From assembly GCA_029262415.1 (NCBI GenBank), contig JAJCZL010000058.1, positions 1 through 64,000 of the forward strand: DNA of 64,000 bases, written 5' to 3'. Position 1 is the stretch's first letter; each line of letters opens with the position of its first letter. The notes below the pieces were generated by a model. The model was given only the letters and a program-made list of their open reading frames with translations, was not told the origin of the DNA and ran no database searches. The translations under genes were made by a program, and so were the position numbers. Below, in pieces: positions 39,574-56,914 of this stretch. The stretch comes from Deltaproteobacteria bacterium. Lineage in GTDB: Bacteria; Desulfobacterota; Binatia; UBA1149; JAJCZL01.

Positions 39574-41328
39574 TCAATACTCCTCCGGGTTGTGCCTCTC
39601 TCCGTGACACGTCAGATAGCATCGTCCGTGCTTGTTCCCAAGATCTATAAACTCCAGTCGACCGGTCCCGGGATCCGCCGATACCACCGAGAGATCGAAG
39701 TTGATGAGGTGGGAATTGTTTACCGAGTTGCCCTGGGTGGAACTTATGCCGTGAGGGTCGTGACAAACACTACATGGGGCGTCTTCGCCTCGGATGTGTT
39801 TGTCGTGCTCGTCGAAACTGTCGTCATTGAGCAAACTCGTTTGGCTATGACACTTGAAACACATCTGGTACTGGACCGGAGTGTACCCGATGCCGTCAAG
39901 CAAGTTGTAGCGTCGCTCGAGTATATGATCGTACATAGAACCGTGCGGCCCGGCGGGGCCGCTTCCGCCTGCTCCGGGCCCCGTGTCGCTCGCATGGCAG
40001 TCGGTGCAGTAGATGTAACTAGATTCGGTGTAGGGCGGAAGAAGACTGGGAACATCGTTGTTATTACCGAGGGCAACGACAGGATGAAACGAAGGACCCG
40101 GAAATTCGAACTGTAGCCGCTTGTCCACCTGCGCAAGCTGTCGGTTTACCGGAGGGGTCGTCATGGAAAACTCGCCGTGACACTTGAAGCATACCTCGTA
40201 CTGGAAAGTGACATTAGCGACAGGCTGCCCAGCGGCATCTATTCCCGTCGCGCCACGCAACGCCCCGCTCGCAAACGGCGCGATCGCGGCCGTCTCGGTG
40301 GCAGCATGCGGATTGTGACAGTCAGTGCACTCTACGTGACTGGTCATCGGTAGGCCGGCATCCTCGTTGGGCTCGTGAACGTCGGTCTCGGCCGCAACGG
40401 GGTGGTTGAACGGCGTCGTGATGTCTGCCGCAATGTCAGTGGCCGCTACCTGTCCGTTGTGACATACGAGGCAATTGTCCTCTTCAAACCCGTAGTTCAG
40501 TATCCACGCGGTGCTCCCGGCGGCATGCGGGCGGTGACAGTTAGCACACGCGTTATCCGCAACCGTCGTCAAATCACTCCCCGGCCACGGATCGGGTAGT
40601 GTACCGTTCCATGTCGCCAGTGACGTCGCATGTACTGACGTCGTCCAGTCGGAGTGATCGTGGCAAGTACGGCACAGTTCCGAGCCCACGGTGGACGCCA
40701 CCAGGAACTTCCCAAAGCCCTCCTCGTGGGGGTCGTGGCAAGAGGTGCACTGAAGTTGCCCGAACCCATCCAACCTAACGTCGCCTGTCAACGCTACCGG
40801 GTCTACTAGATCCGGGTTAGTTGCAGCTAGATTGCCGTCGTAATCGAATGACACCGGATGGTCGTCACTCAAGTCGCTACCAATCAGACCCGGCCCGGCG
40901 GGCAGGAATCGTACGCCACCGACAAAACCGACCTCTGCAGCTTCACTCAACAGCGCACCCAACGCGACGGTTCCGTCGTGACACGACAGACATAGTTTGC
41001 TCGCCCCGGTGGGCTGGCCGACTACGGCCGTTAGTGTCGGACTGTCATACGGGATGTATGTGGCCGTCGAATCCTCACGGTTCCACAGTATGCCCTGAGT
41101 TACCGACGCATGGTGCGGTGTGTGGCAGAAGATACAAAGGCGCGATTCTTGATCAGCCTTGACCGTTCCCGGTCCGGACACCGACAAGTTGTGCTTGGTG
41201 TTCTGAATCCCGGCGTGAACTGGTAACGCCAGCAAAGTAACGAACGACAGAGCGAGGGGAATGATATAATACACGGCTGATCTAGTTCCCAAGGTACTCG
41301 AAGACCTGAACCCGCTTATTGTATCCAT
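39574..41328 (-). CDS. Dodecaheme cytochrome c, exported
   Basis: 584 residues from the ATG at 41328, chosen because it gives a full signal peptide (LALSFVTLLALPVHAG); a GTG at 41274, 7 bases after the upstream stop, is an alternative. Twelve heme sites: eleven CxxCH (CIFCH, CLSCH, CTSCH, CRTCH, CANCH, CLVCH, CTDCH, CFKCH, CTDCH, CFKCH, CSVCH) and a final CYLTCH with three intervening residues. The first four-heme stretch (CHTPHH, GILWNRE, GASKLCLSCHDGT, DDHPVSFDYD) matches the tetraheme protein at 47277. It is the last gene of the porin/propeller operon and is probably periplasmic or surface-exposed, completing an outer-membrane conduit. Confidence 0.88.
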   Translation of the reverse strand: MDTISGFRSSSTLGTRSAVYYIIPLALSFVTLLALPVHAGIQNTKHNLSVSGPGTVKADQESRLCIFCHTPHHASVTQGILWNREDSTATYIPYDSPTLTAVVGQPTGASKLCLSCHDGTVALGALLSEAAEVGFVGGVRFLPAGPGLIGSDLSDDHPVSFDYDGNLAATNPDLVDPVALTGDVRLDGFGQLQCTSCHDPHEEGFGKFLVASTVGSELCRTCHDHSDWTTSVHATSLATWNGTLPDPWPGSDLTTVADNACANCHRPHAAGSTAWILNYGFEEDNCLVCHNGQVAATDIAADITTPFNHPVAAETDVHEPNEDAGLPMTSHVECTDCHNPHAATETAAIAPFASGALRGATGIDAAGQPVANVTFQYEVCFKCHGEFSMTTPPVNRQLAQVDKRLQFEFPGPSFHPVVALGNNNDVPSLLPPYTESSYIYCTDCHASDTGPGAGGSGPAGPHGSMYDHILERRYNLLDGIGYTPVQYQMCFKCHSQTSLLNDDSFDEHDKHIRGEDAPCSVCHDPHGISSTQGNSVNNSHLINFDLSVVSADPGTGRLEFIDLGNKHGRCYLTCHGERHNPEEY

Positions 41329-42364
41329 CGGCGATGTAGATTCGGTTGCCGTCGGTGACCTCAAGGCCCGCAGGTAACCAGAACTGCCCAGCCCCTGCGC
41401 CCGGTTCGCCAAAGTATAGCAACAACCTTCCCTGATCGTCGAAGATCTGTACGTTCTCAAATAACGCATCGACCACATAGATGTGTCCCTCGCCGTCGAC
41501 ATCGGCCCCTTTCGGCCGTAACAACGCTCCCGGTCCGTCCCCGACCCGCCCTAGAGTAAACAGCGGCACCCCCGAAGAAGACAAGACCTGAACTCGGAAG
41601 TTCAAGGTATCGGTAACGTAGAACCTCCCTGCACCGTCGATGGCAAGGTGCGTTGGGTAGTTGAACTCGCCCGGCTTATCGCCACGACCTCCGACCGCAC
41701 GCTGCACCGCACCCCTCTCATCGAGAGCGACAAGGCGGTGTGCGCCGCTATCAACCACCCACAACAGGTGCTCCTCGGGGGCAAACGCCACTCCCGTGGG
41801 ACGAACAAGTTCTCCCCCCGCATCCCAGCTGGGCAGCATATCTCCACGCGCATTGAACCTCAGGATCAACCCAAGCGCAGAATCTGATACGTAGGCGGTA
41901 CCCTCCGTGTCATGCGTTACCGCAATCGGAGACTGTATCTTGTCGCGCGGTCGCTTCGGCAGTACCTGGTATCGGCCGCCCTTTAGGTCAAAGACGTGGA
42001 CGGCATGCGCGCCCGGATCGGTAACCCACAGTCTGCCGCGCGCATCGACGGCGACATCGTGAGGGCGAACTATCCGCGGCGGTTGTTTGCCGCTCACCCA
42101 GTTCCAGAAACGCGACAGCACGCCGTCGCGAATCCCCAAGTCCGCCGGTCCCCTAATCTCAGAGACCCAGCGGATCCTGGCTCGCGACGGTTCCCGCGGC
42201 CAGACCGGCCCACTCAACTCTGTATCGAGACCGTTGCGCGCGGCAACGGTGGGCCCACAGGCGCTGATCATCAAGCAACCGCAGATAACAAACAGTAGCA
42301 GTATCCGAGCCAGTCGTCGGCCGGTCCCAGCAATTCTGCACAGCGTATGAATGCCACAAGCCAC
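41282..42364 (-). CDS. NHL-repeat beta-propeller lipoprotein (downstream copy)
   Basis: 360 residues from a GTG at 42364 with GAGGAG nine bases before it; a TTG at 42370 overlaps the barrel gene stop. The lipobox is LMISAC. Six NHL-type blades follow (RPHDVAVDARGRLWVTDPG, SPIAVTHDTEGTAYVSD, PTGVAFAPEEHLLWVVD, PTHLAIDGAGRFYVTDT, LRPKGADVDGEGHIYVVDA, GLEVTDGNRIYIADGYNKR). Such propellers often accompany multiheme outer-membrane complexes of metal reducers. It is 30-40% recognisably alike in layout to the propeller at 45296 by eye (ENVQIWD/ENVQIFD, GDGPG). No catalytic role is evident; a scaffold is likely. Confidence 0.87.
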   Translation of the reverse strand: MACGIHTLCRIAGTGRRLARILLLFVICGCLMISACGPTVAARNGLDTELSGPVWPREPSRARIRWVSEIRGPADLGIRDGVLSRFWNWVSGKQPPRIVRPHDVAVDARGRLWVTDPGAHAVHVFDLKGGRYQVLPKRPRDKIQSPIAVTHDTEGTAYVSDSALGLILRFNARGDMLPSWDAGGELVRPTGVAFAPEEHLLWVVDSGAHRLVALDERGAVQRAVGGRGDKPGEFNYPTHLAIDGAGRFYVTDTLNFRVQVLSSSGVPLFTLGRVGDGPGALLRPKGADVDGEGHIYVVDALFENVQIFDDQGRLLLYFGEPGAGAGQFWLPAGLEVTDGNRIYIADGYNKRVQVFEYLGN

Positions 42365-42366
42365 CG

Positions 42367-44427
42367 TCAATAGCTCCTCTCTATTCGGAAAAACAACACG
42401 TTAACCAGCTCTTTAGTGCGTTCAAGATCACCAATCTTATTACTCACCTTGTTCCAGCTAAACTGGTCCTGAAGCTGCAGACGCAGACGACCGTAGTGAT
42501 AGACGAAGGAGACATTCGCCCCTTGAACAGTAGTTTCATGCTCAACTTCGTCTAACAGGCGCGCCAACAAGCCGAATCGTCCGAGAATACCGTAACGAAA
42601 CCAGACCGTAGCGTTTGCATCTGCGGAATAGACCTCGGACAGCCGGCCGGTATCGGTGATGAGATCACGCACATAGCCGACTGAAGCATTCAGAGCGGCC
42701 CGTCGCAGCGGCCTAAAATTCACGCTGTGGACGGCACTGTACCGTTCACGCGGAGTAATGTCCGACTCGGTGCGTTCGTATTCCAGCCGCGTACTATTGT
42801 GAGCGAACAACGCACTCAGACTCGCATTGAAGCGACTCTCGTCACTCAGGGTGTTGTCTTCTTCGCTGCCACGGATGAGATCCTGGACGGTCTCGCTGTA
42901 GCTAACGTCGGCACTCCAATGTTCGAACAAGTAGAGACTGGCACCGTACAACATCGTACGAGTCGTAAACGTCCGAGCAGGCTCACGAACAAAATCATAA
43001 GCGATGGAGAGCTGCGGCGTCGTCGTGGGATCAATATTACCCGCGGGTTTTATCAGCAGAAACGTTCGCGTGTTTTCGACAATCACATCGTAGTCGATAC
43101 CTTCGGTAAACAGATTCTGCGTCGCGGCGTCTATGACCACAATGCTGGTCACGACCGCATTGAGGTTGTCGATCTCGATTGGCACGCCGATCAGGACGTC
43201 GGCCAGCTCGCTGAGAATACTGGCGAGTGAAGATTCGACGTCTTCGTCCTGATACGCATACGAAGGAGAAAACCTCAGTCCGAAGCGCCCACCGGGGATT
43301 TGCTTGGTGTATCGGAGGCTCACGGAGCCGTCAGCCTGCTGAGTACTCCCGGTGTCAAAATCAGTGTAGGCGACGCTGGCAAGGACGGTACTGCTGAGAG
43401 ACTGATAAAGCTGATGTGTCAGACCGGCAAACCCACGATTGCTGGTCTGTCTACTACTGGCGCTCTCCTGGAAGTTAAAGGAATATCCATAGTTCGAGTT
43501 TAACGTTTCTCCGTGGGTTACAATCAGAGTTTCGTACAGGGAAAGGGACTGAGAATTAAAGTCCCCACCGGTGTCAGTAGCGAGCAGCTGGCTCGAGAGT
43601 CTGCTGTTAGCCAACTCGAGTTCCTGGGACATCCTCAGGTACTGCCGCTCGAACGTACGGGTGTTGCCGCTACGCCCTGACTCCTGCAAGTCCCATTCGT
43701 ATTCCAGCTGGTTGCGCGCACGCTCGGTTTCATTGTCGACGACGACCTCGATCTCGTCAGCGACACGATCGGTGCCGAAGGGTCCATTCGTGGTCGTCTC
43801 GATGTGACGATACTGCGCCCTGGCGGGGGTACTCAACTCACCAATTCCCAGATCACGTAGTCGCAATCCAGCGCCGTACTGAAAGGTGTCGACACTACGC
43901 CGCGGAGCAAACGGCGAATTGATGTCGGAGTGAATCTGGCTCGTGAAAAAAGACACCGGATAAGGCTTGTCCGGCAACACCTGCAGGTTGACGTTAAAGC
44001 TTTCCTGTAGGGCATCGATTTGCGACAGTCCCTTTTCTCCCGAAGACTCGACAAAGTCTTGCTCAAACTTCAAACCGAGATCTACTGAAACGCGTAGTAG
44101 CGCCGGGTGATAGATCCAGCCCTGCGCACCCGTTGAGATCTCCTCAGACACGGCCCACTCATTGAGATCGGTTTTCGGGTTTTGGTCGGACTCGCGCACT
44201 TCCCGATCATTGCGCACCTCGACAGCGGTCTTACCGTGCCAGCCATACATACGGTAGTAGGGGCCGCGCCGACGCTGCGCCTCGACGACTTGGGGAACCA
44301 AGGCTTGAAGACAAAACGTGGCGATCAATAGTGCTACGCACACCGGCCAAGGTGCGTAAGCCCACGCGGGTCCGGCACTTGGCCTAGGCCCTTCCAGCGG
44401 GGCGTATCTACCACCAAGCGACCTCAT
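42367..44427 (-). CDS. Predicted outer-membrane beta-barrel (porin-like) protein
   Basis: 686 residues. A signal peptide-like N-terminus (ALLIATFCLQALVPQVVEAQ) is followed by long stretches of alternating polar/hydrophobic strands rich in aromatic and Arg residues, such as LSLYETLIVTHGETLNSNYGYSFNF and YADFD-like turns, and the chain ends in an aromatic (RIERSY), as outer-membrane barrels do. No CxxCH is present. It lies between a pentaheme cytochrome and an NHL propeller and overlaps the former as ATGA. In porin-cytochrome complexes a barrel of this kind insulates a heme wire through the outer membrane. It does not resemble MtrB closely by eye; family is unassigned. Confidence 0.7.
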   Translation of the reverse strand: MRSLGGRYAPLEGPRPSAGPAWAYAPWPVCVALLIATFCLQALVPQVVEAQRRRGPYYRMYGWHGKTAVEVRNDREVRESDQNPKTDLNEWAVSEEISTGAQGWIYHPALLRVSVDLGLKFEQDFVESSGEKGLSQIDALQESFNVNLQVLPDKPYPVSFFTSQIHSDINSPFAPRRSVDTFQYGAGLRLRDLGIGELSTPARAQYRHIETTTNGPFGTDRVADEIEVVVDNETERARNQLEYEWDLQESGRSGNTRTFERQYLRMSQELELANSRLSSQLLATDTGGDFNSQSLSLYETLIVTHGETLNSNYGYSFNFQESASSRQTSNRGFAGLTHQLYQSLSSTVLASVAYTDFDTGSTQQADGSVSLRYTKQIPGGRFGLRFSPSYAYQDEDVESSLASILSELADVLIGVPIEIDNLNAVVTSIVVIDAATQNLFTEGIDYDVIVENTRTFLLIKPAGNIDPTTTPQLSIAYDFVREPARTFTTRTMLYGASLYLFEHWSADVSYSETVQDLIRGSEEDNTLSDESRFNASLSALFAHNSTRLEYERTESDITPRERYSAVHSVNFRPLRRAALNASVGYVRDLITDTGRLSEVYSADANATVWFRYGILGRFGLLARLLDEVEHETTVQGANVSFVYHYGRLRLQLQDQFSWNKVSNKIGDLERTKELVNVLFFRIERSY

Positions 44428-45290
44428 GGCTTCAGCGTAGCCTTGGCAATCTTGCGCACTACATGCTGCACAGACGAGCTACTTTCCGACTCCCTAGCGG
44501 CTTTCAGGATGAAGCGATTCACGCCACGGTGTGGGTCGTGGCAACGCGTACAGTCCGCGATGACTTGAGCGTCAGCCGGTCGAGCTGGATCTTCTCCGGC
44601 ATCTCCATCCGTCTGTTCTTGGGTCGGTACCGAGGCTGGATACGTAGTGTCGAGCTCGGAGGGCCGATGCTCCGGCGTAAACGCGAGTAAATCTCCGCGT
44701 ATGTGGCATTGGGTACACAGCCGAGCAGACGGCTCAGCGTGCACGAGGTGTTCGTATGACGATGAGTGGGCCTGGTGGCACGTCACGCACCAGCCGACAT
44801 GTACGGGACCATGCATCCATAGGCCGGCATTCTCCGGCGCACTGGGGGCAAAATCGCTATGGCAACGTATGCAGAGTTTGTCTACCGGCATGCGCAGACG
44901 TCCCGCTTCCGCCAGCTCGCCACCGGCACCCGGCATCAACGGCAAATTTGCACCCGCGCTTCTGAAACCAGAGGCAGCCGCCAGATCGTGACAGCTCCCA
45001 CATTCCTTCGCGGCAAAGGGACCGTGGGTAAAGCGACTTATCTTCGCTACTTGCCTTCCACGGCGCACGCGCTCTGATTCCGCTTGCGCTGCCTCCTCAA
45101 CGGCTTGCTCTTCCGCCTCGGCAAGCAGCCGAACGCGGTCCTCCGGAGAGACATAGGGCGGCACACCATCGAAGATAACCGCAAGGACATCGTGTCGCGC
45201 CTGCTCACTGCAGGCTGAGGTAAGAGCCATGATCGGCGCGCCGACTAAGACGAGCACCGCGGGCATGAACCATGCTGAGCGGCACGCCAT
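44424..45290 (-). CDS. Pentaheme lipoprotein cytochrome c
   Basis: 288 residues from the ATG at 45290; a GTG at 45296 is in frame and overlaps the upstream stop. Lipobox MALTSAC. Residues about 55-80 form a charged helix rich in Glu and Ala (EEQAVEEAAQAESERVRRG). Five CxxCH: CGSCH, CIRCH, CVTCH, CTQCH, CTRCH, with extra His in FTHGPF, MHGPVH and EHLVH as candidate distal ligands. FTHGPFAAKECGSCH and HGPVHVGWCVTCH resemble the NrfB/ doubled-CxxCH periplasmic cytochromes. Directly upstream of the barrel gene, it is the best candidate for the cytochrome that docks into the barrel from the periplasmic side. Confidence 0.85.
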   Translation of the reverse strand: MACRSAWFMPAVLVLVGAPIMALTSACSEQARHDVLAVIFDGVPPYVSPEDRVRLLAEAEEQAVEEAAQAESERVRRGRQVAKISRFTHGPFAAKECGSCHDLAAASGFRSAGANLPLMPGAGGELAEAGRLRMPVDKLCIRCHSDFAPSAPENAGLWMHGPVHVGWCVTCHQAHSSSYEHLVHAEPSARLCTQCHIRGDLLAFTPEHRPSELDTTYPASVPTQEQTDGDAGEDPARPADAQVIADCTRCHDPHRGVNRFILKAARESESSSSVQHVVRKIAKATLKP

Positions 45291-45295
45291 CGACA

Positions 45296-46393
45296 CTACT
45301 CAACTTCAGCGTCGTCTCCCGAAGAGAAGTCCACATATTTGCTGGGATCCTTCGGGTTAACGAAGCCGTATACCGCGACTTTGTTCGGACCGTAGTTGTT
45401 GGCGACAAGGACGACATACTCGAGAGTGAAATCCGGAGACACGTAGTCCTTGAAGTAATCGACGAGGTCATAGCTCACGAACACGGACCCCGGCAGGTAC
45501 ATCTGCCCCGGCCCAACACCGCTTCCGCCGAACGCGAGGACGACTTGCGCGTTGCTGCTATCCCAGATCTGCACGTTCTCGAAGGCGGCATCCACCGTGT
45601 ATAGGTAACCTTCTCGATCCGATGCCGTGCCCTTCGGACGCGCAAACGTACCGGGCCCGTCGCCGAGAAACCCGTAGGACTTCACGTACTCTCCCTTCTC
45701 ATCGAATTCCTGCACGCGAAAGTTGGCCATGTCGGTAACGAACAGATGGCCGTCCTCGTTCAACGACAGAGAGGTCGGAGTATTGAACTCCCCCTCGTCC
45801 TTTCCCGGACCTCCTATTGTCCTGACGGCCTTCCTACTACGACGGTCGAACACCAAGACCTGATGGCCACGTCGATCGCAGACGTAGAGACGACGCTCGT
45901 CGACGGCAACGCCTGTAGGAAGAATCTCAGCCGGGTCTCCATAGGACCCCACAAACTCGTTTTCAGCATTGAACTGCACGACTTGCCTACGCCCGCTGTC
46001 CGCGAAGAACTTGTCGCCATTCTTATCAATCGCGATCGCTACGGGGACGTTGAGCTTACCGTCATCGTGGTCGCCTATCGTCTCGAACAGTTTCTGCTTC
46101 AAGTCGATCTTAATGACCGTATCCCATCCCGGATCCGCCACGTAGATAACGCCGTCGTGGGCGGCTATACCAGTCGGCTTTCTCAGTTTTCGAACGCTCG
46201 AGACGTCGCCCACCAAGAAGTTCATCAAGCGGCTCTCCTTCTCGATGTCACGTGCTTCGACGATCTTTGTCAGGAACTGAATCCGCGGCCTTTGCGGTGG
46301 TGGCGGATAGGCGACATACGCCGTAGAAACCTGACCGCCGGTCGAGCATCCGCCCGCGATGACGCCCACGACCAGTACGATCATTGTCCGCAT
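45296..46393 (-). CDS. NHL-repeat beta-propeller lipoprotein (upstream copy)
   Basis: 365 residues from the ATG at 46393, with AAGGA six bases upstream and lipobox IAGGC; longer starts at 46423 and 46453 are possible. Blades include KPTGIAAHDGVIYVADPGWD, VPVAIAIDKNGDKFFADSG, LPTGVAVDERRLYVCDRRG, TPTSLSLNEDGHLFVTDMA and RPKGTASDREGYLYTVDAA. It ends with an acidic tail (SSGDDAEVE). It is a paralogue of the propeller at 41282; the two bracket the pentaheme cytochrome and the barrel in gene order. Probably a periplasmic or outer-leaflet scaffold. Confidence 0.87.
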   Translation of the reverse strand: MRTMIVLVVGVIAGGCSTGGQVSTAYVAYPPPPQRPRIQFLTKIVEARDIEKESRLMNFLVGDVSSVRKLRKPTGIAAHDGVIYVADPGWDTVIKIDLKQKLFETIGDHDDGKLNVPVAIAIDKNGDKFFADSGRRQVVQFNAENEFVGSYGDPAEILPTGVAVDERRLYVCDRRGHQVLVFDRRSRKAVRTIGGPGKDEGEFNTPTSLSLNEDGHLFVTDMANFRVQEFDEKGEYVKSYGFLGDGPGTFARPKGTASDREGYLYTVDAAFENVQIWDSSNAQVVLAFGGSGVGPGQMYLPGSVFVSYDLVDYFKDYVSPDFTLEYVVLVANNYGPNKVAVYGFVNPKDPSKYVDFSSGDDAEVE

Positions 46394-46445
46394 CAAGTTC
46401 CTTGCTGGGATTGAAAGAGTCATCGCGTCCCCAACTACCAACCTG

Positions 46446-47108
46446 CTACCCATGTGGATCTCCAAGCCGCATAGGCGACTCGATGGCTTCCTGCCGACTG
46501 TACTCGACAGAAACATGACAGCTTGTTGCACACTTGCCACCGTTTTCGGTCTCCTCGAACTTCAGCGTAAGTCGCTGCTGCCCATATAGCATGAAGTTGC
46601 TAATCAGTGGCGCGTTACTGGCGCCATGCGCCTCATGACAAAGACGACAAGAGCGACCTCGACGCAGCTTCGCGACATGCCGGTAATGGAGATTGTCGTC
46701 ACCATTGCGGAAAGCCGTCGCCGTACTCGTTTCTTGCTCTTCAACCAGCGTCGGGTCGTGACAGGACTTGAAGCAAGCAGAATACTGCGCACGAGTGTAA
46801 GTGGCATAGGAGCCGGCCGGGATCGTTCCGTGGAGTATGCTCGACGGCAGCTTGCCTTTCGCGTGAGTGAGATGACACGCCAAACACTCGCCGTCTCGGA
46901 GGGGACCATGCAAGTACAGCTTCGAGTTAGCCCAAGCCCGCCCTTCCTCACTCTCGGCCTCAACTCTCTTGCCAAGCATGGAAGAAAACTCCTGGTGACA
47001 ACCGCTACTAGTACACGCGCCCCCGTCCGCTGCACCAACAACCGTCACCCACATCAATAGACACGCGGTAGCGAGAAACACTACTGCCCCTCGGGCCGCT
47101 CCGGTCAT
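46446..47108 (-). CDS. Pentaheme cytochrome c with atypical heme motifs
   Basis: 220 residues with a signal peptide ending VVGAADG. Heme sites in order: CTSSGCH (four residues between the cysteines), CLACH, CFKSCH (three), CRLCH and CATSCH (three); only two of five are canonical CxxCH. The C-terminal ~100 residues (ETSTATAFRNGDDNLHYRHV, CRLCHEAHGASN, CATSCH ... YSRQEA) are clearly homologous to the end of the 15-heme protein at 48466. It is the first gene of the propeller/barrel operon, after a terminator-like hairpin. Predicted periplasmic electron carrier. Confidence 0.85.
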   Translation of the reverse strand: MTGAARGAVVFLATACLLMWVTVVGAADGGACTSSGCHQEFSSMLGKRVEAESEEGRAWANSKLYLHGPLRDGECLACHLTHAKGKLPSSILHGTIPAGSYATYTRAQYSACFKSCHDPTLVEEQETSTATAFRNGDDNLHYRHVAKLRRGRSCRLCHEAHGASNAPLISNFMLYGQQRLTLKFEETENGGKCATSCHVSVEYSRQEAIESPMRLGDPHG

Positions 47109-47206
47109 GCGCAGGTCTCGTGGTTAGCCATGGTGCAGTTCTCAAGGACGAAAAAACAAAGACAATCCTACACTTAGATGCACCCGAAAAACACCCTTTG
47201 TAACTA

Positions 47207-47238: not shown

Positions 47239-47276
47239 TCTACTAGACTATTCGAATCACAAGTCTCCAGTCATAC

Positions 47277-48465: not shown

Positions 48466-49806
48466 TCAGCGCGCCGCTTCCCGATCGTAACCAACGGCGG
48501 GATGGCAACCAGGCTGGCATGACCCGCCGGTAGGGGTGATCTCAAAGTCGATGGGTAGCATCCACTGTCCGAAACGAACTCGGTCGCGCACGAGCTTGAC
48601 GTTGCCCGCAGCGTGAAAATCGTGGCACGCGCGACAGGTGCGGCCCTTTTCTGCCCGGTTCACATGCAGGTAATGGAGGTTACGCGTCCCATCACGAAAG
48701 CCGGTAGACGAACTCGTTTCTCGCAGGGTGAACGCTTTCCGGTCATGACAAGAAAAGCAGAGCTCATAACGATCGACCTTGAATCCTGCATAGAAGCCAG
48801 CGGGGAAAGGGGCTTTGAGCAGCCGCAGATGCTCGCTTCCGTGAGGGGAGTGGCACTGCACGCAGGTGTCCTTTTCCGTTAACGGCTTGTGCCGCTGCTC
48901 GTTGTCGTCGAGCCAGGCTTGCATATCAAGCAGCACTGAGTTGCCCGACCGCAGACGCTTATCGTGACAGCCGAGACAGAGGTTCTGCGGCTTATCCTTC
49001 AACAGCGGTTTCTCATCCGCTCCATGGGGGGAATGGCAGTTTACGCACTCGTCTCCCTTTAGAGCGGCACCGTGATCGACAGCCGAACCCTCGACCGCCT
49101 CGACAACCTCCTCGTGACACTCCGCGCAAAGTCGGCGACCCTTGGCCGGCAGCATTCTGGGGTGGTCAGCACTATGCGGATTGTGGCAATTCGTACAGTC
49201 TCCGGCCTCGTGCTGGTACTTAGCACCGTTCATCGCTTTGCCATGGTCATCGTGGCAATCCCAACACAACGCGGAAATCTCCGCATTAAGAAGCAGACTA
49301 CTGTTAGGAGAAGAGTGAGGATCATGGCACGAGACGCACTGTCCCTCTTGCGCCGGCTCGTGCTTGTACTCGCCTTCGATGAGGTCATCGTGGCAGTCGA
49401 GACAAAGGCCGTCTTCAGGCTCGGCCGACAGCAACGCACTCGCCTCGCTGCCATGAACTTTGTGACAATCGAGGCACCCGTCCTCTAGCGGAAAGTGGAT
49501 ATTCTTCTGAGCGTAAATCTCCTTCACCCGATCCTCATGACACTGCGAGCACAACTCGGGCGCATCAGCGACGGTGAACTCGTGTCCGCTGCCCGCCGGT
49601 CGGTGACACTCCCCGCACTCCTGCGCCAATCCGGGCCAGTGCAGAGTACTGTGCTCGTTGAAATCGCTATGGCACCCGGACGAGACACAGGGAGCTGCCG
49701 GATCGACTGCCGGCGCAGCGGCCGCATCGCCTGCAGCGCCGGCGCTAACAGCCGACGCCAGCAAGAACAGCAACGCAACCTGCTGCACTACGTTGCCCGC
49801 GACCAT
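48466..49806 (-). CDS. Fifteen-heme cytochrome c
   Basis: 446 residues with a signal peptide ending VSAGAAG. Fifteen heme sites: CVSSGCH (four-residue spacer), thirteen CxxCH (CGECH, CSQCH, CLDCH twice, CVSCH, CWDCH, CTNCH, CAECH, CVNCH, CLGCH, CVQCH, CFSCH, CRACH) and CQPGCH (three-residue spacer). Middle hemes come as doubled-CxxCH repeats with CHxPHxS/G between them (CHDPHSS, CHNPHSA, CHSPHGA, CHSPHGS), one heme per about 27 residues. The C-terminal module is shared with the pentaheme protein at 46446. It probably spans the periplasm as a long wire between the inner-membrane module and the outer-membrane conduit. Confidence 0.88.
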   Translation of the reverse strand: MVAGNVVQQVALLFLLASAVSAGAAGDAAAAPAVDPAAPCVSSGCHSDFNEHSTLHWPGLAQECGECHRPAGSGHEFTVADAPELCSQCHEDRVKEIYAQKNIHFPLEDGCLDCHKVHGSEASALLSAEPEDGLCLDCHDDLIEGEYKHEPAQEGQCVSCHDPHSSPNSSLLLNAEISALCWDCHDDHGKAMNGAKYQHEAGDCTNCHNPHSADHPRMLPAKGRRLCAECHEEVVEAVEGSAVDHGAALKGDECVNCHSPHGADEKPLLKDKPQNLCLGCHDKRLRSGNSVLLDMQAWLDDNEQRHKPLTEKDTCVQCHSPHGSEHLRLLKAPFPAGFYAGFKVDRYELCFSCHDRKAFTLRETSSSTGFRDGTRNLHYLHVNRAEKGRTCRACHDFHAAGNVKLVRDRVRFGQWMLPIDFEITPTGGSCQPGCHPAVGYDREAAR

Positions 49807-49922
49807 TTTTTCTTACCGGCCTGCACTCTCTGTCTTTCACCGCGAAAGAACGACACGAGACTAAGAGGCTCCCACGGGCCCCTTAACTCAACCACATCCA
49901 GCCGAGCCAAGCCCCTGGCGGA

Positions 49923-50495
49923 TCAATGCTCGTACTTCAGTTTAAAGTGCTCGTGGACACCCTCTTTAGCTTTCTCGAAATCGAACTCTTTGAAGAACGG
50001 GCTCTTCTCGTTGTGGCAGGTGGTACATTGCTCTTTAGTCGGCTTACCGACAAAGCCCAGTGGCGCAAGATCGGCTGTCTTGAACTCCTTGTTCTTGTTG
50101 GAGTGTAAGTCGTCGGCGAGGAATCCGCCACCAGCGCCGTGGCACATCTCGCAGCCAACCCCGCGGAGTCCGGCATCGTCTTCGGCCACGCTGTACCCGC
50201 CAGGTTTTCCGTAGCCGGTAACGTGACAAGAAAGGCACTCGGGGTCCGCAGTGTAATCCTTGGCCGGGTCTACGCCTGCCGCCTGCTTCTCGGCCGCACG
50301 CTCGTTCGGCTTCAACGCGTCAAAAGCCTTGGACATCTTCGTCTTTTCCCAGGCTTTGTACTGTTTGATGTGGCACTTCTTACAGGCACCCGGCCCCACG
50401 TAGGTGGACTCGGCCGCTGCCGGCTTCGCAACGACAAGTGCCAGCACGCACACAGCGAAAACGGCGCTCCAGGAACTACTAGGTTTCATAGTCAC
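49923..50495 (-). CDS. Tetraheme cytochrome c554-like protein
   Basis: 190 residues from a GTG at 50495, seven bases after GAGGAG; it overlaps by one base the stop of the four-domain cytochrome. Signal peptide ends KPAAAES. CKKCH, CLSCH, CEMCH and CTTCH are the four hemes; YVGPGACKKCHIKQYKAWEKTKMSKAF is, in parts, the classic start of cytochrome c554-type domains, and GVGCEMCHGAGGG their third heme. Such proteins shuttle electrons in the periplasm. It closes the inner-membrane operon that begins at 56708. Confidence 0.88.
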   Translation of the reverse strand: MTMKPSSSWSAVFAVCVLALVVAKPAAAESTYVGPGACKKCHIKQYKAWEKTKMSKAFDALKPNERAAEKQAAGVDPAKDYTADPECLSCHVTGYGKPGGYSVAEDDAGLRGVGCEMCHGAGGGFLADDLHSNKNKEFKTADLAPLGFVGKPTKEQCTTCHNEKSPFFKEFDFEKAKEGVHEHFKLKYEH

Positions 50496-51742
50496 TATTT
50501 TTCTCCTCTGGTCTCTCGGTTCAAGAAAGCAATCAAGTCGGCCATTTCGTTACCCTCGAAGCGAGGCCAAGGAACTCCAACTTTCGCCATCTCGCCGAGC
50601 ATCTCTTGACCGAACCGCCACATGGCATGCGCCATAAGAACGGGGGACGCGTTGCCGGCTATTGCATCGAACCCAGGGCCGACGTCCCCCCCGCTCTCGC
50701 CAATCGCGTGACACCTAACGCACTGCTTCTCCAAAAACACCTTTCCCCCGGCCTCGGCGTCTCCCTCGGCAAAGAAATAGCGACGCGCAATCAGAAACGT
50801 GATCACGTCCGCCATCTCCTGCGCTTGCAGTTCTTGGGCCGGCGCACCCGTGCGTCGGATCTCTTCCAGCATGCGCGGGGCATGATTCCAGAGCCGCGCC
50901 GCAATACCCGAAAGGGTATCCGGCAGCTCTATCCTTTCCAAATCCGGGGCACCCTCTTCACCATCGTCCGCAGTGTGACAGCTGGCACAGCCTCGCACTT
51001 CAAAGACCTGCTTGCCGCGTGAGATCGAACCGGGCTCGAGGTACTCCTTCTCTCCACTTGCCGCGCGAGAGCGGACATAGGCAACGACATCGTTCAGGTC
51101 GCTGTCTCTGAACTCCGGCCAAGCTATACCGGCCTCGTCCATTGCAGCCTTCATCGCATCCGCGTGCGTCCACATCTTCTGTGCCCACACGACCGGATTG
51201 ACGTAGCGGGCCCACTCGACGAGATCAGGTCCTACCGTTTCTCCCGGTTCATCCACGGAGTGGCATTGGGTACATTGGTGTTCGTTCAATACTTTCTTGC
51301 CGGAATCCGCGTCTCCAGGTTCATCCGCGTAGCGGATGAACAACAGAAGCGCGAATAGGTGGCTCATTTCTTCTGGAGAGATCGGTGTGAGTTCCATCCC
51401 CCCTTCTTCCATCCTCTCCCACATACGCGGAACATGGTTCCACATTACTCCCGCGAGTTGTCCAGCAGTGGTATGTTTGAGGGTCCGCGTTCTTCCTAGG
51501 TCTGGTCCCGAGACTCCGCCTTGCCCCCAGACGGCATGGCAACTAACGCACCCTTTATCGCGAAAGAGACTCCAACCTCGCTCGGCCTCGCCGGTCAACG
51601 TGGTGCGCTTGGCATCCTCAGCCGTGAGTGCGAGCTCCTTCTCGCTCTCGGTAGCCTGAGAAGCACCCGCGTACGATACCGTCCAGGCACCGGCGACAAA
51701 CGCCATTGCGAAAACCATCACCGCAACTTTCTTGGAGGTCAT
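50495..51742 (-). CDS. Four-domain cytochrome c (four tandem monoheme domains)
   Basis: 415 residues. After a signal peptide (MVFAMAFVAGAWTVSYAG), four class I domains of about 90 residues repeat, with CVSCH at 65, CTQCH at 157, CASCH at 252 and CVRCH at 341. Each has a GPDL-like loop and a helix bearing MWNHVPRM, MWTHADAM, LWNHAPRM or MWRFGQEM, in which the Met is the probable distal ligand. It overlaps the NrfD gene as ATGA. Its place right after the A-B-C module suggests it takes electrons from the quinol-oxidising complex, in the way ActE or a cytochrome c acceptor does. Confidence 0.88.
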   Translation of the reverse strand: MTSKKVAVMVFAMAFVAGAWTVSYAGASQATESEKELALTAEDAKRTTLTGEAERGWSLFRDKGCVSCHAVWGQGGVSGPDLGRTRTLKHTTAGQLAGVMWNHVPRMWERMEEGGMELTPISPEEMSHLFALLLFIRYADEPGDADSGKKVLNEHQCTQCHSVDEPGETVGPDLVEWARYVNPVVWAQKMWTHADAMKAAMDEAGIAWPEFRDSDLNDVVAYVRSRAASGEKEYLEPGSISRGKQVFEVRGCASCHTADDGEEGAPDLERIELPDTLSGIAARLWNHAPRMLEEIRRTGAPAQELQAQEMADVITFLIARRYFFAEGDAEAGGKVFLEKQCVRCHAIGESGGDVGPGFDAIAGNASPVLMAHAMWRFGQEMLGEMAKVGVPWPRFEGNEMADLIAFLNRETRGEK

Positions 51743-53154
51743 TGCCGCCCCCCTCCACCGGCAGGCAGTGCTGCTGCCAAAGCACCGCTATCGGCTTCCG
51801 GCTCCGGCGACTCGACCTTATAGGCATCAATCCTGTCGAGCATGTCCTGTTTCGCATTCATACGTCCTTCTTGAATCTCCCAGATGGAAACGATGGGGAA
51901 GAAGCGGGTGAAGAGTACGTAGAGCAAGATAAAGAAACTGAAGCACCCCACCAGCATCGACCACTCTACCCAGGTTGGATGATAGAGGCCCCTGTCGATC
52001 GGGAGTCGTGGATTCGCGATCGTCGGAATGACTATTATGAAACGTTCGAGCCACATACCAATGGTGATGAAAATCGACACTACCACCGTGCCCGCAACCG
52101 TGCGGGTCTTGCTGCGGCTAAGGATGGCCATCGGAACGATGAAACAACACACGACCATCGTCCAAAAATAGCCGGAATACTCGCCGTTGATCTTCGCCCA
52201 CCACACCGTCAGTTGAACCGGCTCACCGCCGTACCATGTGGTCAGGTACTCACTGAATGTGAAGTAGAACCACAACAAGGTCATCACCAGGAGCAACTGG
52301 CCCAGGTAGTCGAAGTGGATGTTCTTCAGATAGCCCTCCAGGTGGTAGGCCCAGCGGATGATCGCCATAGCAATGATGAGAGCTGCAATTCCGCTAAAGA
52401 TCGCGCCCACCACGAAATACGGACCAAAGATCGCCGCGTGCCACATAGGCTGTACGGTCATCGCGAACACAAACGAAACCACAGTGTGTACTGATACCGC
52501 GACAGGAATTACCAGTACCATCATGAAGCCCATCGCTTTCTCAAGCCGCTCATACTGACGTTCGGTGCCTTGCCATCCGAGAGCCAGCATCCGATAGAGC
52601 CACTTTCTTTTGTTCGTCTGATCGCGAAGAATCGCGATATCCGGGATCAGCGGAAGATAGAGATAAATCGTACTGCAGCAAAGATAGACACTGATCGAAC
52701 AGACGTCCCACAACAGCGGCGACTGTAGGCGCCCGTGTTTGAGGACGTAAAGCAAACGATCCGGGCGACCGAGATCGAAAATCACATTGCCCACGCCGAA
52801 TACGATGACCATCACGGTAATCACTTCGGCCGACCTGGTGATGGCTCTCCGCCATTCAGCCCCGGCCAATCGCAAGATCGCGGAGATCAGCGTTCCGGCA
52901 TGGCTGATGCCGATGAAGAACACAAAATTGATGATGTACATGCCCCAGTACACCGGCCGGTTCATCCCGGTCACGCCCAGGCCGGTTCGAACCTGATATA
53001 CGTAGGCCGATACTCCGAGGCTTACCCCTGCAAGCAGGCAGGCAACGACAATCCAAAAGCGTGAATCCGACTCGACGGTCGGCCTTACAAGAGCCCAATC
53101 GGGTCCCAACGGATCGGTAGGTTTCGGCATGCGCCTGTTATGTGAGTGACTCAC
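51739..53154 (-). CDS. NrfD/PsrC/ActC-type quinol-interacting membrane subunit
   Basis: 471 residues from a GTG at 53154 (GGGAG upstream) that overlaps the ferredoxin stop as GTGA. About ten transmembrane helices are evident, for example FWIVVACLLAGVSLGVSAYVY, IINFVFFIGISHAGTLISAIL and WFYFTFSEYLTTWYG in shortened form. GISHAGTLISAILRL and the FxxxSEYL region match the ActC/QrcD type rather than the shorter NrfD. The protein exchanges electrons with menaquinone. The C-terminus (residues about 435-471) is a cytoplasmic tail rich in Pro, Ala and Gly. Confidence 0.9.
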   Translation of the reverse strand: MSHSHNRRMPKPTDPLGPDWALVRPTVESDSRFWIVVACLLAGVSLGVSAYVYQVRTGLGVTGMNRPVYWGMYIINFVFFIGISHAGTLISAILRLAGAEWRRAITRSAEVITVMVIVFGVGNVIFDLGRPDRLLYVLKHGRLQSPLLWDVCSISVYLCCSTIYLYLPLIPDIAILRDQTNKRKWLYRMLALGWQGTERQYERLEKAMGFMMVLVIPVAVSVHTVVSFVFAMTVQPMWHAAIFGPYFVVGAIFSGIAALIIAMAIIRWAYHLEGYLKNIHFDYLGQLLLVMTLLWFYFTFSEYLTTWYGGEPVQLTVWWAKINGEYSGYFWTMVVCCFIVPMAILSRSKTRTVAGTVVVSIFITIGMWLERFIIVIPTIANPRLPIDRGLYHPTWVEWSMLVGCFSFFILLYVLFTRFFPIVSIWEIQEGRMNAKQDMLDRIDAYKVESPEPEADSGALAAALPAGGGGRQ

Positions 53155-53843
53155 TTGCCGCTCCCTACTCGCAGGTAATACACCTTTGGTTCAGTCCCGA
53201 GATCTTCCAGCAGGCGAGACGCACGCGACGAACGCGACAGTTTAGACACCTCGCTGTCCGGGTCCGCGAGGTCACCGAATACCATTGCGTCGGTAGGACA
53301 GGTCTCGACACAAGCCGGAACGTATTCTCCCGGTCGAAGGTCTCGCCCTTCGAATGCAGCCGCATCGCGAGCTTTCATCAGCCGGTGATTGCAGAAGGTG
53401 CACTTCTCGACCACCCCCTTGTAACGAACCGAAACGTCCGGGTTAATGCCCTGCTCATAAGTTTCGGGAACGTCGGGGGGAAACCAATTGAACTGCCGCA
53501 CAGTATAAGGACAGGCGTTGGTGCAATAGCGACAACCTATACACCGGCTGTAGACCTGGCCGACTATTCCTTCTGACTCGCTGAAGAACGTGGCACCAAC
53601 CGGGCATACCTTGATGCACGGTGGATGCTCACATTGCTGGCACATCACCGGAAGTACCGACATCTTCGTATGAGGGTATTCGTCTTCGTAGACCGGCATC
53701 ATGTTAATCCAACGAATGGACCTGCTCTGTGCCCCGAGCTTAGGATTCGACGGCGGCACGTTGTTTTCTTCGTGGCACGCGGTAACGCATCCTTGACAGG
53801 CGGTGCAGCGGTTGAGATCGATTACCATTCCCCAGCGAGCCAT
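53151..53843 (-). CDS. Four-cluster ferredoxin subunit (NrfC/PsrB/QrcC type)
   Basis: 230 residues with GAGGAG upstream. Four cysteine groups each able to take part in [4Fe-4S] clusters: CTACQGCVTAC, CQQCEHPPCIKVC, CIGCRYCTNAC, and CTFC with CVETC, the DmsB/PsrB arrangement. MARWGMVIDLNRC is the typical opening and no signal peptide is present, so it would be exported by riding with the Tat-borne molybdopterin-fold subunit. It links that subunit to the NrfD-type protein. Confidence 0.93.
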   Translation of the reverse strand: MARWGMVIDLNRCTACQGCVTACHEENNVPPSNPKLGAQSRSIRWINMMPVYEDEYPHTKMSVLPVMCQQCEHPPCIKVCPVGATFFSESEGIVGQVYSRCIGCRYCTNACPYTVRQFNWFPPDVPETYEQGINPDVSVRYKGVVEKCTFCNHRLMKARDAAAFEGRDLRPGEYVPACVETCPTDAMVFGDLADPDSEVSKLSRSSRASRLLEDLGTEPKVYYLRVGSGK

Positions 53844-53859
53844 CGTTCGTTCTCCTCGG

Positions 53860-56181
53860 CTATGCGGTCTGTTTTACGCGAACCAAGGTTGGGTCCCGCG
53901 GAAGCGCGAATCCGGAATCCTGCAGCCGGCCCGATAGCAGTTCGAGAGGTTTCGAACCGACCCCCGCATCGTAGCGCCCGCCGTAAACGCGGCCGCCACC
54001 TGTATGGAGGGCTACTACATCGGGACGAATCGCCGGGGAGAGCACCGCTCGTGCCTCGACTTCTCCGTGTTCACTGCTGACGAGCACGCGACCACCGTGC
54101 TCAATATCCAGATGGTGGGCGGTCTCCGGGTTCAGTTCTGCAGTGTTGGTCCAGCCCATCTCGGCCAGGGGAGAAGCAATGTCCTGTAGATAGGGAAGCG
54201 ATCCACCCGGACGCACGCTCAGAGTCTGTTCGGTGGTCACGTAGAGCAAGAGCCCTCGATCGTGAGACCCGGCTGTGGCAGGCGATAGCGTCGGGCGAGC
54301 CGGAACGCGTACGGCAGCCAAGTCGATCCGATGATCTCCCCCGGGTGCCAATCGCCGCCATTCTCCATGCGCGTGACTCGAATCCCACCAACCACCGGTC
54401 GAGTGCAGTTGCTTCTCTAACCGGGTGACACTGTCATAGGCGGGACTCCGCCAACCGCTGCGCTCGAGTAACTGCGTCCACTCAGAACGTTCGGCCGCAG
54501 CAAAGGTGTCGCCCACGCCGGAACTGTAAAGCGCATTACTCTGAGCCGAGACCAGCTCGTCGTAGCTCTTCCAGCCAAACCTCTCGGCGACACCGCCACC
54601 GATCTGACCGGCCAGCGCGATGACTACGTCTGCGATATTTCGCGTGTCGGCTCGTCGCGGTGCCGCCGCCGCGCTAACCGACACCACCGGACGTCCGTGC
54701 TCGTCGGCAACGCTCGCATCACAGTGCCTTTCGATCCATAGGCTCCCGGGGAGAACAAGGTTCGCTGCTTGTAGAGTGTCGGTTACTACCGGCGAAGTTG
54801 AAACCACCACCGGGATCTTCGCGAGCGCTTCCGCAACTTTGTCTCCGGCCGTACTCGAGAATACCGGGTCGGCATCGTGCACGAACAACACCTCGATCGT
54901 CGGCCCGCGGCCTTCCAGAACCCAGGTCGCCAGTTCTTCAACGGTCCTGCGCTCTACAAGGGTGCGGCGGTCTGCGCGCACCGTACCCTCGGCATCGGGG
55001 GGCGGCTCTACAGGCCCATCAAGTATCGGCAACGGATTCGAGCCGGCAAGCAGCACACCACCCGGAACATCGATGGAACCGACTACCGCATTCAGGGTGT
55101 GTACGGCCATCGCATCGAAGAGCCCCGCGGAGGCCGGCCCCTCGGTGGGCCCGATCGCCAGCGGCCTCTGAGCGGCACCGAATTCGCGGGCCGTGCGGAT
55201 GATTTGCTCCAGAGATACGCCGGTAACCTCCGCGACACGCCGTGGTGAGAACTCACGAAGCAGCCAAGATCGTACACCATCGTGATGCATGCCGAGTTGG
55301 TCGGTCCAATCGTAGTACCCTTTGGTTTTCGCACTCAAGAAAGTCGTCTGCTCGTAGCCCTCTTTGATGAGCATGTGGGCAATTCCAAGCGCCAGCGTCC
55401 CTACTGTGGACGGACGAATCGGCACCCACTCGTCGGCTTTCGATCCGGTCACGCCCATCCGCGGCCCGGCGTGCACGAATGACCCCCCGCTGGAACGCAT
55501 GTCTGCGAATCCTCGATGCAGGGTCATGGTCGCCGACGCAGACTCGAGTAACCCGCTGTCGATGGAAAGCAAGAAGTCTGCATTCGCAATGTCGTAGACA
55601 AAGCGGCCTTCGGTTCCGTGCATCGCGCGTAAGGTCTCGTCTGCGGCACGATCGGCAGGGGTCTGGGAATCGACTATCCAGTCGGACCCGGCAGAGCGGA
55701 CCAGACGCCCAAGCAACTGCGAGGAAATGTCCTGACCATCGCCACGAATCACCGCCACGCGTCCCGGCCCCCCGGCGATCACCCTCTTCAAGCGAACCGC
55801 AACCTCCGCAATCCCCTCGTCCCAGCCGATCGGTGCCCAACCTCCAACCGCGTCGGCAACTTTCCGGATCGGCCCAGCCAATCTATCGGGGTCATAGTAG
55901 AGTTGGAGGCTTGCCGCTCCCCGAGCGCACAACCCGCCCCGGTTCACCGGATGCAACGGGTTGCCGGTGACAGTAACCGGATGACCATTGGCAAGCCGCA
56001 CTCGCAGACCGCACGCGGACGGGCACAGCTGGCAAATACTGTTCGCCCAAGCCTCCGTGGGCTCGAGAATCAGAGTGGAAGCTATGCGCTCATCATCACG
56101 TGAGCACCCTACCACCGGGCCAAAGCCGACCAGCATTGCGCCACTGCCTAGACCGAGAAGGAACTGTCGACGATTCAGCAT
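53860..56181 (-). CDS. Molybdopterin-oxidoreductase-fold subunit of a Qrc/ACIII-like complex
   Basis: 773 residues from the ATG at 56181 (AGAGG five bases upstream). The N-terminus combines a Tat motif (NRRQFLLGLGSG) with a lipobox-like VVGC at 26, suggesting a Tat lipoprotein. The [4Fe-4S] ligands are Cys50, Cys53, Cys57 and Cys85 (CQLCPSAC ... GLCARG). The usual Mo-ligand and pterin-contact sequences are weak: where catalytic members have GSNP-type loops this reads LLSIDSGLLES. Loss of molybdenum is known for QrcB and ActB, which keep only the fold and clusters. It lies between the pentaheme and ferredoxin genes. Confidence 0.85.
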   Translation of the reverse strand: MLNRRQFLLGLGSGAMLVGFGPVVGCSRDDERIASTLILEPTEAWANSICQLCPSACGLRVRLANGHPVTVTGNPLHPVNRGGLCARGAASLQLYYDPDRLAGPIRKVADAVGGWAPIGWDEGIAEVAVRLKRVIAGGPGRVAVIRGDGQDISSQLLGRLVRSAGSDWIVDSQTPADRAADETLRAMHGTEGRFVYDIANADFLLSIDSGLLESASATMTLHRGFADMRSSGGSFVHAGPRMGVTGSKADEWVPIRPSTVGTLALGIAHMLIKEGYEQTTFLSAKTKGYYDWTDQLGMHHDGVRSWLLREFSPRRVAEVTGVSLEQIIRTAREFGAAQRPLAIGPTEGPASAGLFDAMAVHTLNAVVGSIDVPGGVLLAGSNPLPILDGPVEPPPDAEGTVRADRRTLVERRTVEELATWVLEGRGPTIEVLFVHDADPVFSSTAGDKVAEALAKIPVVVSTSPVVTDTLQAANLVLPGSLWIERHCDASVADEHGRPVVSVSAAAAPRRADTRNIADVVIALAGQIGGGVAERFGWKSYDELVSAQSNALYSSGVGDTFAAAERSEWTQLLERSGWRSPAYDSVTRLEKQLHSTGGWWDSSHAHGEWRRLAPGGDHRIDLAAVRVPARPTLSPATAGSHDRGLLLYVTTEQTLSVRPGGSLPYLQDIASPLAEMGWTNTAELNPETAHHLDIEHGGRVLVSSEHGEVEARAVLSPAIRPDVVALHTGGGRVYGGRYDAGVGSKPLELLSGRLQDSGFALPRDPTLVRVKQTA

Positions 56182-56189
56182 TATCACCT

Positions 56190-56708
56190 CTACCTATGGC
56201 AATGGATGCAATCCGAGCTGACTCCGCGTTCCTCGTGACACTGCAGACACCAGTCCATCGTCTGGTCGACTAGCGGATACGACGGTGGGGCGATAGTTTC
56301 CGCTATGGCACCGTGGCACTGGGAGCAAGTAAGCTCGGCAACGGCTACATGCCTACGGTGCGAATAGAAGACGTGGTCGGCTACGGCGTACACACGTTGC
56401 CAAGGTACGTTGCGGCCCTCGGCTGCAAACGCCAGCAGTTTGATCATCTCGGGATCATCCGAGGAGTCGTCCTCGTGACAGTCCATGCAAAGCTCGGTGG
56501 TCGGTAAGCCTGAGAAAGTCGCTGTCGCGAAGTTCTGGTGGCAGTCGGCACACTCGATATCTTGCTCGATGTGCTTCTTGTGACTGAACTGTATCGGCTG
56601 CTCTATCGCCGGTGGGCCCGCGCAGGCCCCCAGTCCGACAGCAACAACGATCATCACGCCGCAAAGGGCTGCCTGACCTCCGAGCATGAGAACCCACTCC
56701 CTCGCCAT
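56190..56708 (-). CDS. Pentaheme cytochrome c lipoprotein (ActA/QrcA-like)
   Basis: 172 residues from the ATG at 56708; the ATG at 56687 has a better ribosome site (GAGGGAG) but would lose the positive n-region. Lipobox GLGAC. Hemes CADCH, CMDCH, CSQCH, CLQCH and CIHCH, with QFSHKKHI and FYSHRRHVA giving the HxxH distal histidines of class III cytochromes c. Five hemes equals ActA; QrcA has six. It is the first gene of the inner-membrane module and probably the electron exit or entry point at the periplasmic face. Confidence 0.87.
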   Translation of the reverse strand: MAREWVLMLGGQAALCGVMIVVAVGLGACAGPPAIEQPIQFSHKKHIEQDIECADCHQNFATATFSGLPTTELCMDCHEDDSSDDPEMIKLLAFAAEGRNVPWQRVYAVADHVFYSHRRHVAVAELTCSQCHGAIAETIAPPSYPLVDQTMDWCLQCHEERGVSSDCIHCHR

Positions 56709-56898
56709 TTTTCGACGCAGACACCGACGGCTTGCTTGATCGGCGAAACTCGATCGCTGAACGGGGTGGACCCCCTCGACCCGTGGCGGCACCGAGACGG
56801 CAGCCCTGACACCCTCAGTGCACACAGGGGCTACGCGCTCTCCCACCCGGGGGAACAAACAATACTGTGAGACCGTGGCATCAAGTCACGCCTGCTGC

Positions 56899-56914
56899 AG
56901 CACAACTTGTGCCA
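56899..56914 (-). promoter_or_regulatory. Candidate sigma-54 promoter (or palindromic operator) of the cytochrome operon
   Basis: Minus strand reads TGGCACAAGTTGTGCT. TGGCAC is a perfect -24 box, GG and GC are ten bases apart, and the -12 half is TGTGCT instead of TTGCA. The site also contains the perfect palindrome GCACAA-C-TTGTGC (56900-56912), so it could instead bind a dimeric regulator. It is about 190 bp upstream of the pentaheme ATG. Confidence 0.5.

Follow-up and report, generated by a model that had tools for sequence, protein, structure and literature searches.

An OmcE-family cytochrome and a predicted OmcE/MtrA-like chimera in a conserved barrel cassette adjoining an ACIII/Qrc-like quinone module of a deltaproteobacterial contig

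Introduction

Gene clusters that combine multiheme cytochromes with barrels or NHL proteins have been described in several lineages. The undecaheme electron transfer (Uet) cluster of the Tenderiales and some Gallionella, still uncharacterised, comprises a barrel, two NHL proteins, a tetraheme cytochrome and an 11–12-heme doubled-CXXCH cytochrome (PMC10734462), and PCC3 and PCC4 were proposed earlier as complete inner-to-outer conduits in one cluster (PMC5566968; He et al. 2017). In Desulfovibrio ferrophilus, multiheme cytochromes stand beside NHL/beta-propeller proteins at DFE_0448-0451 and DFE_0461-0465 (PMC9769857, PMC8322314); the DFE cytochrome families have been reported to be some of the most frequent multiheme families (PMC11475568), and porin-cytochrome conduits were reported as not apparent in the D. 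ferrophilus genome (PMC9769857). An OmcE homologue together with two NHL proteins has also been pointed out at a locus of Geoalkalibacter (PMC12016550). Here, a run of multiheme cytochrome genes was analysed at positions 39574-56914 of a 64-kb window (the whole stretch of DNA, positions 1 to 64,000 of contig JAJCZL010000058.1, assembly GCA_029262415.1, a Deltaproteobacteria bacterium of the Binatia). All 14 genes discussed lie on the minus strand and are numbered from the high-coordinate end. How cytochrome nanowires join outer-membrane conduits is, to our knowledge, an open question.

Results

The cassette formed by genes 8–14 holds a subunit of a nanowire family together with a protein that, as modelled, carries a copy of that subunit on a longer heme chain. 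Gene 8 (47277..48056) encodes a tetraheme cytochrome which by its family profile is a member of the OmcE (nanowire) family. The profile of 42 gene 8 relatives matched OmcE (PDB 7tfs) with E=4e-46 over 7-232 of 7tfs and PDB 9yuq (16 chains in the entry) with E=4e-44, the next cytochrome being MtrA at 9e-6; a single-sequence search with gene 8 gave no meaningful match, and the OmcE link was seen by family profiles only. Gene 8 has four CXXCH motifs as in OmcE, the last of them at the C-terminus (CLTCHDK, compared with CLGCHKK in OmcE), and the eight heme-ligand His of OmcE (bis-His ligation) were invariant in all 42 tetrahemes. In a midpoint-rooted tree of the tetrahemes and 59 N-terminal domains of 12-heme proteins, OmcE and 9yuq were placed within the tetrahemes and apart from all 12-heme domains (support for the OmcE/tetraheme grouping 0.93). 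The original prediction, made from the window's sequence, had listed this tetraheme as a soluble carrier, a role that was rejected upon the OmcE match.

Gene 14 (39574..41328) encodes a 12-heme cytochrome with a motif pattern of 11 CXXCH and one CX3CH, which was found in 82 of 85 homologues, and the eight ligand His of OmcE were invariant in 58-59 of the 59 12-heme N-terminal domains. On the AlphaFold2 (AF2) model (predicted local distance difference test, pLDDT, 89.5), residues 45-224 were aligned to OmcE with Z 17.9, a root-mean-square deviation (rmsd) of 2.0 and 38% identity, and residues 107-543 to MtrA with Z 10.5, rmsd 3.6 and 31% identity. The modelled protein is a chimera of an OmcE domain and an MtrA-like heme chain, and this fusion suggests a built-in anchor that would join nanowire to conduit.

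Gene 12 (42367..44427), for which failure to be a beta-barrel had been named beforehand as one of two outcomes refuting the original prediction, had no match in Pfam or NCBIfam and was predicted by AF2 as a large outer-membrane barrel (pLDDT 90, about 26 long strands). With VIA-align, the first structural match of this model was MtrB (6r2q_B; Z 18.0, 439 aligned, rmsd 9.6) and the next was FhuA (Z 16.3), of the TonB-dependent receptors; because MtrB stands only modestly above these receptors, the cautious description is a large, MtrB-like barrel. The barrel gene is overlapped by 4 nt by gene 11 (44424..45296), which encodes a pentaheme lipoprotein and candidate barrel-threading cytochrome; of 80 barrel genes, 39 have a pentaheme gene immediately before them. 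Two NHL beta-propeller lipoproteins are encoded on either side, by gene 10 (45296..46423; lipobox IAGGC; Pfam NHL, 1.7e-18) and gene 13 (41282..42370; lipobox ISAC; Pfam NHL, 6e-30).

The order of genes 8–14 in the window is tetraheme, pentaheme, NHL, pentaheme, barrel, NHL and 12-heme, and the commonest order in relatives was 4-heme, NHL, pentaheme, barrel, NHL, 12-heme. Scanning with the 12-heme family identified 80 named loci, 71 of them with the barrel and 60 with an OmcE-type tetraheme; at loci of at least 18 kb, both were found beside the 12-heme gene in 40 of 44. The cassette core was present in about ten phyla, the taxa (by record title) including Nitrospirae, Planctomycetes, Verrucomicrobia, Bacteroidetes, Calditrichota, Zixibacteria, Gammaproteobacteria, Desulforhopalus and Geobacteraceae. 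Desulforhopalus sp. IMCC35007, a cultured organism, is one of the carriers. A second cassette type was observed in genomes G007, G005 and G103 (L160, L162, L141), with a 12-heme protein of 10 CXXCH, one CX3CH and one CX4CH, a 15-heme gene directly after the 12-heme gene and no tetraheme seen nearby; the 12-heme matches of G005 and G007 were reported with one internal TGA. At gammaproteobacterial-type loci (L103, L065, L054, L055, L062), a neighbouring second cluster of 8-heme, triheme, NHL and 16-24-heme genes was seen.

Gene 7 (48466..49806) encodes a 15-heme, MtrA/DmsE-like protein with about 30 residues per heme. It was matched to TIGR03508 (DmsE/MtrA-family decaheme) with 128 bits, the cut-off of 192.2 not being reached, and to MtrA (6r2q_A) with E=1.6e-13. 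The family pattern across phyla was 13 CXXCH with an N-terminal CX4CH and a C-terminal CX3CH. Gene 9 (46446..47108), a pentaheme and short relative of gene 7, shares the CX4CH and CX3CH ends and gave cross-matches to 15-heme proteins with E down to about 1e-39. Of the 80 named loci, 32 have a 15-heme family protein with at least 13 motifs close to the outer cassette; in G012 the family adjoins the inner module, and in G011 it stands alone. Gene 7 is the best candidate for a link between the inner and outer modules. In both G012 (L029:12505-13782) and G011 (L159:4494-5621), the gene after the 15-heme gene encodes an AhpC/TSA-TPR protein.

The inner-membrane module was compared with the quinone reductase complex (Qrc) and alternative complex III (ACIII). 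Gene 1 (56190..56708; lipobox LGAC) encodes a pentaheme lipoprotein of the cytochrome c7 type (Pfam Cytochrome_C7; 5 CXXCH), QrcA-like or ActA-like, which scored 91 bits against NCBIfam QrcA (cut-off 180 not reached). The best matches of gene 2 (53860..56187, molybdopterin-fold subunit) and gene 3 (53151..53843, four-cluster ferredoxin with 16 Cys) were NCBIfam QrcB (297 bits, cut-off 440 not reached) and QrcC (286 bits, cut-off 400 not reached), respectively. Gene 3 lies barely above the curated cut-off for DsrO (201 bits, with 200 required) yet scores higher with QrcC, and a DsrO name would, as judged from these scores, mislead. Gene 4 (51739..53154), an NrfD-type quinone-binding membrane subunit (Pfam NrfD), scored only 42 bits against QrcD (cut-off 570) and was matched to ActC in PDB (6f0k_C, E=2.2e-77; 6btm_C, 4e-72). 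In an alignment of nine family members of gene 2, the column of the Mo ligand held A, S, G, P or R in all nine and no Cys, and the four N-terminal 4Fe-4S cysteines were invariant; an active Mo enzyme was rejected for gene 2 on the absence of the Mo ligand in the whole family. Loss of the ligand with retention of the Fe-S cysteines agrees with the cofactor-less molybdopterin fold that has been described for QrcB and ActB (PMC6303296). The window also encodes, at 60256-62445 on the minus strand and 3.5 kb from the cluster, another member of the molybdopterin family, which resembles formate dehydrogenase or thiosulfate reductase and scores below all cut-offs.

Gene 5 (50495..51742) encodes a cytochrome with four class-I mono-heme domains (Pfam Cytochrom_C in four stretches) and is conserved beside genes 1–4 in relatives. 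Gene 6 (49923..50495) encodes a tetraheme c554-like periplasmic cytochrome (Pfam Cytochrome_C554, 1.8e-27) and is found beside the inner module in G011 too. Genes 1–5 are found together again in G007, G011, G012 and G103, where MopB is 58-60% identical. More divergent or contig-truncated versions of the block occur in G101, G124, a Planctomycetota metagenome-assembled genome (MAG) and a Zixibacteria MAG. The block is therefore regarded as a distinct complex that stands between ACIII and Qrc. Plain Qrc and plain ACIII were both rejected for the inner module, which has mixed features of the two. In G012 (L029:2604-3890) and G011 (L031:4027-5373), a c554-domain pentaheme gene stands ahead of gene 1 with a PAS/histidine kinase gene divergently beside it; both are absent at the inner block of the window.

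All 14 open reading frames (ORFs) of the run claimed in the original prediction were found, and the recount of CXXCH, CX3CH and CX4CH motifs (5+4+4+15+4+5+5+12) reproduced its 54 hemes. The CX3CH of the ferredoxin (gene 3, residue 19) was rightly excluded because it contains an Fe-S cysteine, and the atypical CX3CH and CX4CH sites look real because the motif patterns of the 15-heme and 12-heme proteins are conserved across phyla. The clustering of heme motifs is not a matter of chance, since 48 of the 50 minus-strand CXXCH in the window lie inside the 14 genes, compared with 4 CXXCH on the plus strand in all three frames together. Some ORF starts were over-long; likely starts, chosen from signal peptides and lipoboxes, are 56708 for gene 1, 48056 for gene 8, 46423 for gene 10 and 41328 for gene 14. 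An inner-membrane quinone module beside periplasmic cytochromes and an outer-membrane set was confirmed. As for a single block, the genes are adjacent on the same strand, but the spacing is uneven: genes 1–6 are closely packed (gaps 2, 16, −4, −4 and −1 nt), gene 7 is flanked by gaps of 116 and 373 nt, 168 nt separate gene 8 from gene 9, and genes 9–14 are again closely packed. A search for promoters and terminators at the module boundary gave counts not above those of shuffled sequence.

Discussion

On balance, the cluster probably encodes an extracellular electron transfer (EET) system to which all 14 genes would contribute. The ActC-type NrfD protein of gene 4, the four Fe-S clusters, the Mo-less molybdopterin fold and the pentaheme would exchange electrons with quinones; the inner complex would pass electrons to gene 5 or 6 and then to gene 7, which would serve as the periplasmic wire. 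The MtrB-like barrel would enclose a short chain of hemes, for which the pentaheme of gene 11, translationally coupled to the barrel, is the likeliest choice, and the two lipid-anchored NHL propellers would brace the barrel. The 12-heme protein of gene 14 would take over electrons at the barrel exit, and gene 8 would polymerise into a heme nanowire starting on the OmcE-like domain of gene 14. A narrower proposal is put forward tentatively and must be called rather doubtful: gene 14 would be a dedicated nanowire anchor whose OmcE-like domain mimics a filament subunit and seeds or terminates the filament, with the MtrA-like part plugged into the barrel, so that the cassette would be a self-contained ‘nanowire socket’ across many phyla, coupled here to an ACIII/Qrc hybrid. 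The retention side by side of an OmcE-family protein, a barrel and a predicted OmcE/MtrA chimera in about ten phyla makes the cassette a concrete, testable candidate for the joint between nanowire and conduit; it would also add many uncultured lineages to those in which nanowire-based electron exchange is likely.

Several points weigh against the full 14-gene EET scheme, one concerning gene 14 and the others the joint working of the two modules. To judge from MtrCAB, MtrA-like threading of gene 14 would put its OmcE domain in the periplasm. A reading in which the 12-heme protein threads the barrel in this way, the tetraheme forms a periplasmic chain and gene 11 is an accessory lipoprotein has in its favour that the MtrA match over residues 107-543 of the model runs in the same N-to-C direction; it is nevertheless thought improbable, the gene coupled directly to that of the barrel, in 39 of 80 instances, being a pentaheme and not a 12-heme gene, and OmcE being known as an extracellular filament (7tfs). 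As regards the modules, the largest intergenic gap (373 nt) separates gene 7 from the outer cassette, inner and outer modules were adjacent only in this genome among the relatives examined, and in G007, G011, G012 and G103 orthologues of both were present on different contigs. Of 395 genomes of the phylum, 10 have the wider MopB family, and only 2 of these hold the 12-heme gene; of the 25 genomes with the 12-heme gene, 23 lack the MopB family. Within the class, all five genomes with a close MopB orthologue had the 12-heme gene, compared with 15 of 148 overall (Fisher 5e-6); four of the five belong to one order, within which p is about 0.05, and the count is inflated because of this common ancestry. 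Two independent neighbours are accordingly a real possibility, in which genes 1–6 would, as an alternative quinol:cytochrome c oxidoreductase, supply a terminal oxidase with electrons, and genes 8–14 (with 7) would be a stand-alone EET cassette with another inner-membrane partner. The four class-I domains of gene 5 and the COX1-type oxidases fit such an ACIII-like role, and most outer cassettes across the phylum lack the inner module; adjacency on one strand here, retention of both modules in all five close-orthologue genomes and the occurrence of the 15-heme protein beside either module speak against it. A joint inner-to-outer pathway is plausible here and not in general, because co-occurrence is complete in close relatives and the modules are mostly independent phylum-wide. 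From the single conduit of the original prediction, mapping of gene order thus retained adjacency in this genome and co-occurrence in close relatives, but not physical linkage in the other genomes.

With respect to direction, it is quite conceivable, though not the expectation, that nanowire and conduit take electrons inward from Fe(II), minerals or partner cells, with the inner module reducing quinone in the manner of Qrc and a heme-copper oxidase consuming the electrons. The Qrc-like subunits B and C are consistent with this route, as are the two COX1-family heme-copper oxidases encoded by the genome and the description of Uet in cathode-oxidising Tenderiales and iron oxidisers (PMC10734462), whereas the membrane subunit resembles ActC, the type of the quinol-oxidising ACIII, homologous cassettes also occur at Geobacteraceae and Desulforhopalus loci, and conduits of such kind are generally reversible. 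Either direction of flow is compatible with the scheme, because of the two oxidases and because the lineages with homologous cassettes include some known for inward and some known for outward transfer.

Comparison with known systems

The cassette resembles MtrCAB (6r2q) in that MtrB is the top structural match of the barrel and genes 7 and 14 match MtrA, and MtrAB-type porin-cytochrome systems in that a large predicted barrel adjoins a multiheme cytochrome; it differs from MtrCAB in the lack of MtrC, the pentaheme beside the barrel and the added NHL propellers. The OmcE nanowire (7tfs, Geobacter sulfurreducens) is resembled in sequence and in the eight ligand His by the gene 8 family and the N-terminal domain of gene 14, and in fold by the gene 14 model, whereas gene 8 sits in a cassette of barrel, NHL and 12-heme genes, where filament formation is presumed from family membership. 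A partial coverage of the literature yielded no published statement that the tetraheme and the 12-heme N-terminal domain of the cassette are OmcE-type, and prior recognition is possible.

The outer set is Uet-like rather than Uet. It shares with Uet, compared by description, a barrel, two NHL proteins, a tetraheme and an 11–12-heme cytochrome, and the 12-heme protein of the window would, counted by CXXCH alone, read ‘undecaheme’ as in Uet. It differs in having two pentahemes in place of the three trihemes UetDEG, no Pfam match to a peptidylprolyl isomerase (UetB) among the 14 genes, and an adjoining ACIII/Qrc-like module. An assignment as Uet proper was not adopted, the trihemes and the isomerase being missing and the comparison with Tenderia being by description only; no isomerase was found among the ORFs tested of L076, a gammaproteobacterial-type triheme relative. 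The likeness to the D. ferrophilus DFE loci, likewise compared by description only, consists in the adjacency of cytochrome and NHL genes. The arrangement had been called unrecognised in the original prediction, a view which does not hold for the outer set, given most of the Uet content (PMC10734462) and its recurrence with a barrel in the scanned loci, nor for a whole path in one cluster, given PCC3 and PCC4 (PMC5566968).

The inner module shares with ACIII the ActC-type NrfD subunit, with Qrc the QrcA/B/C-like subunits, and with both a molybdopterin-fold subunit without Mo ligand. Unlike ACIII, it has the molybdopterin fold and the Fe-S subunit unfused in separate genes 2 and 3 (fused in ActB) and no ActD or ActF within the block (by ORFs and Pfam); unlike Qrc, its subunits all score below the curated QrcA/B/C/D cut-offs; and unlike both, it has a pentaheme rather than a hexaheme and an added four-domain cytochrome c. 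As in PCC3 and PCC4, inner- and outer-membrane parts lie within one cluster; their inner-membrane protein is a five-helix HX13H protein, whereas the cassette is paired in this genome with an NrfD-containing, ActC-like quinone complex intermediate between ACIII and Qrc.

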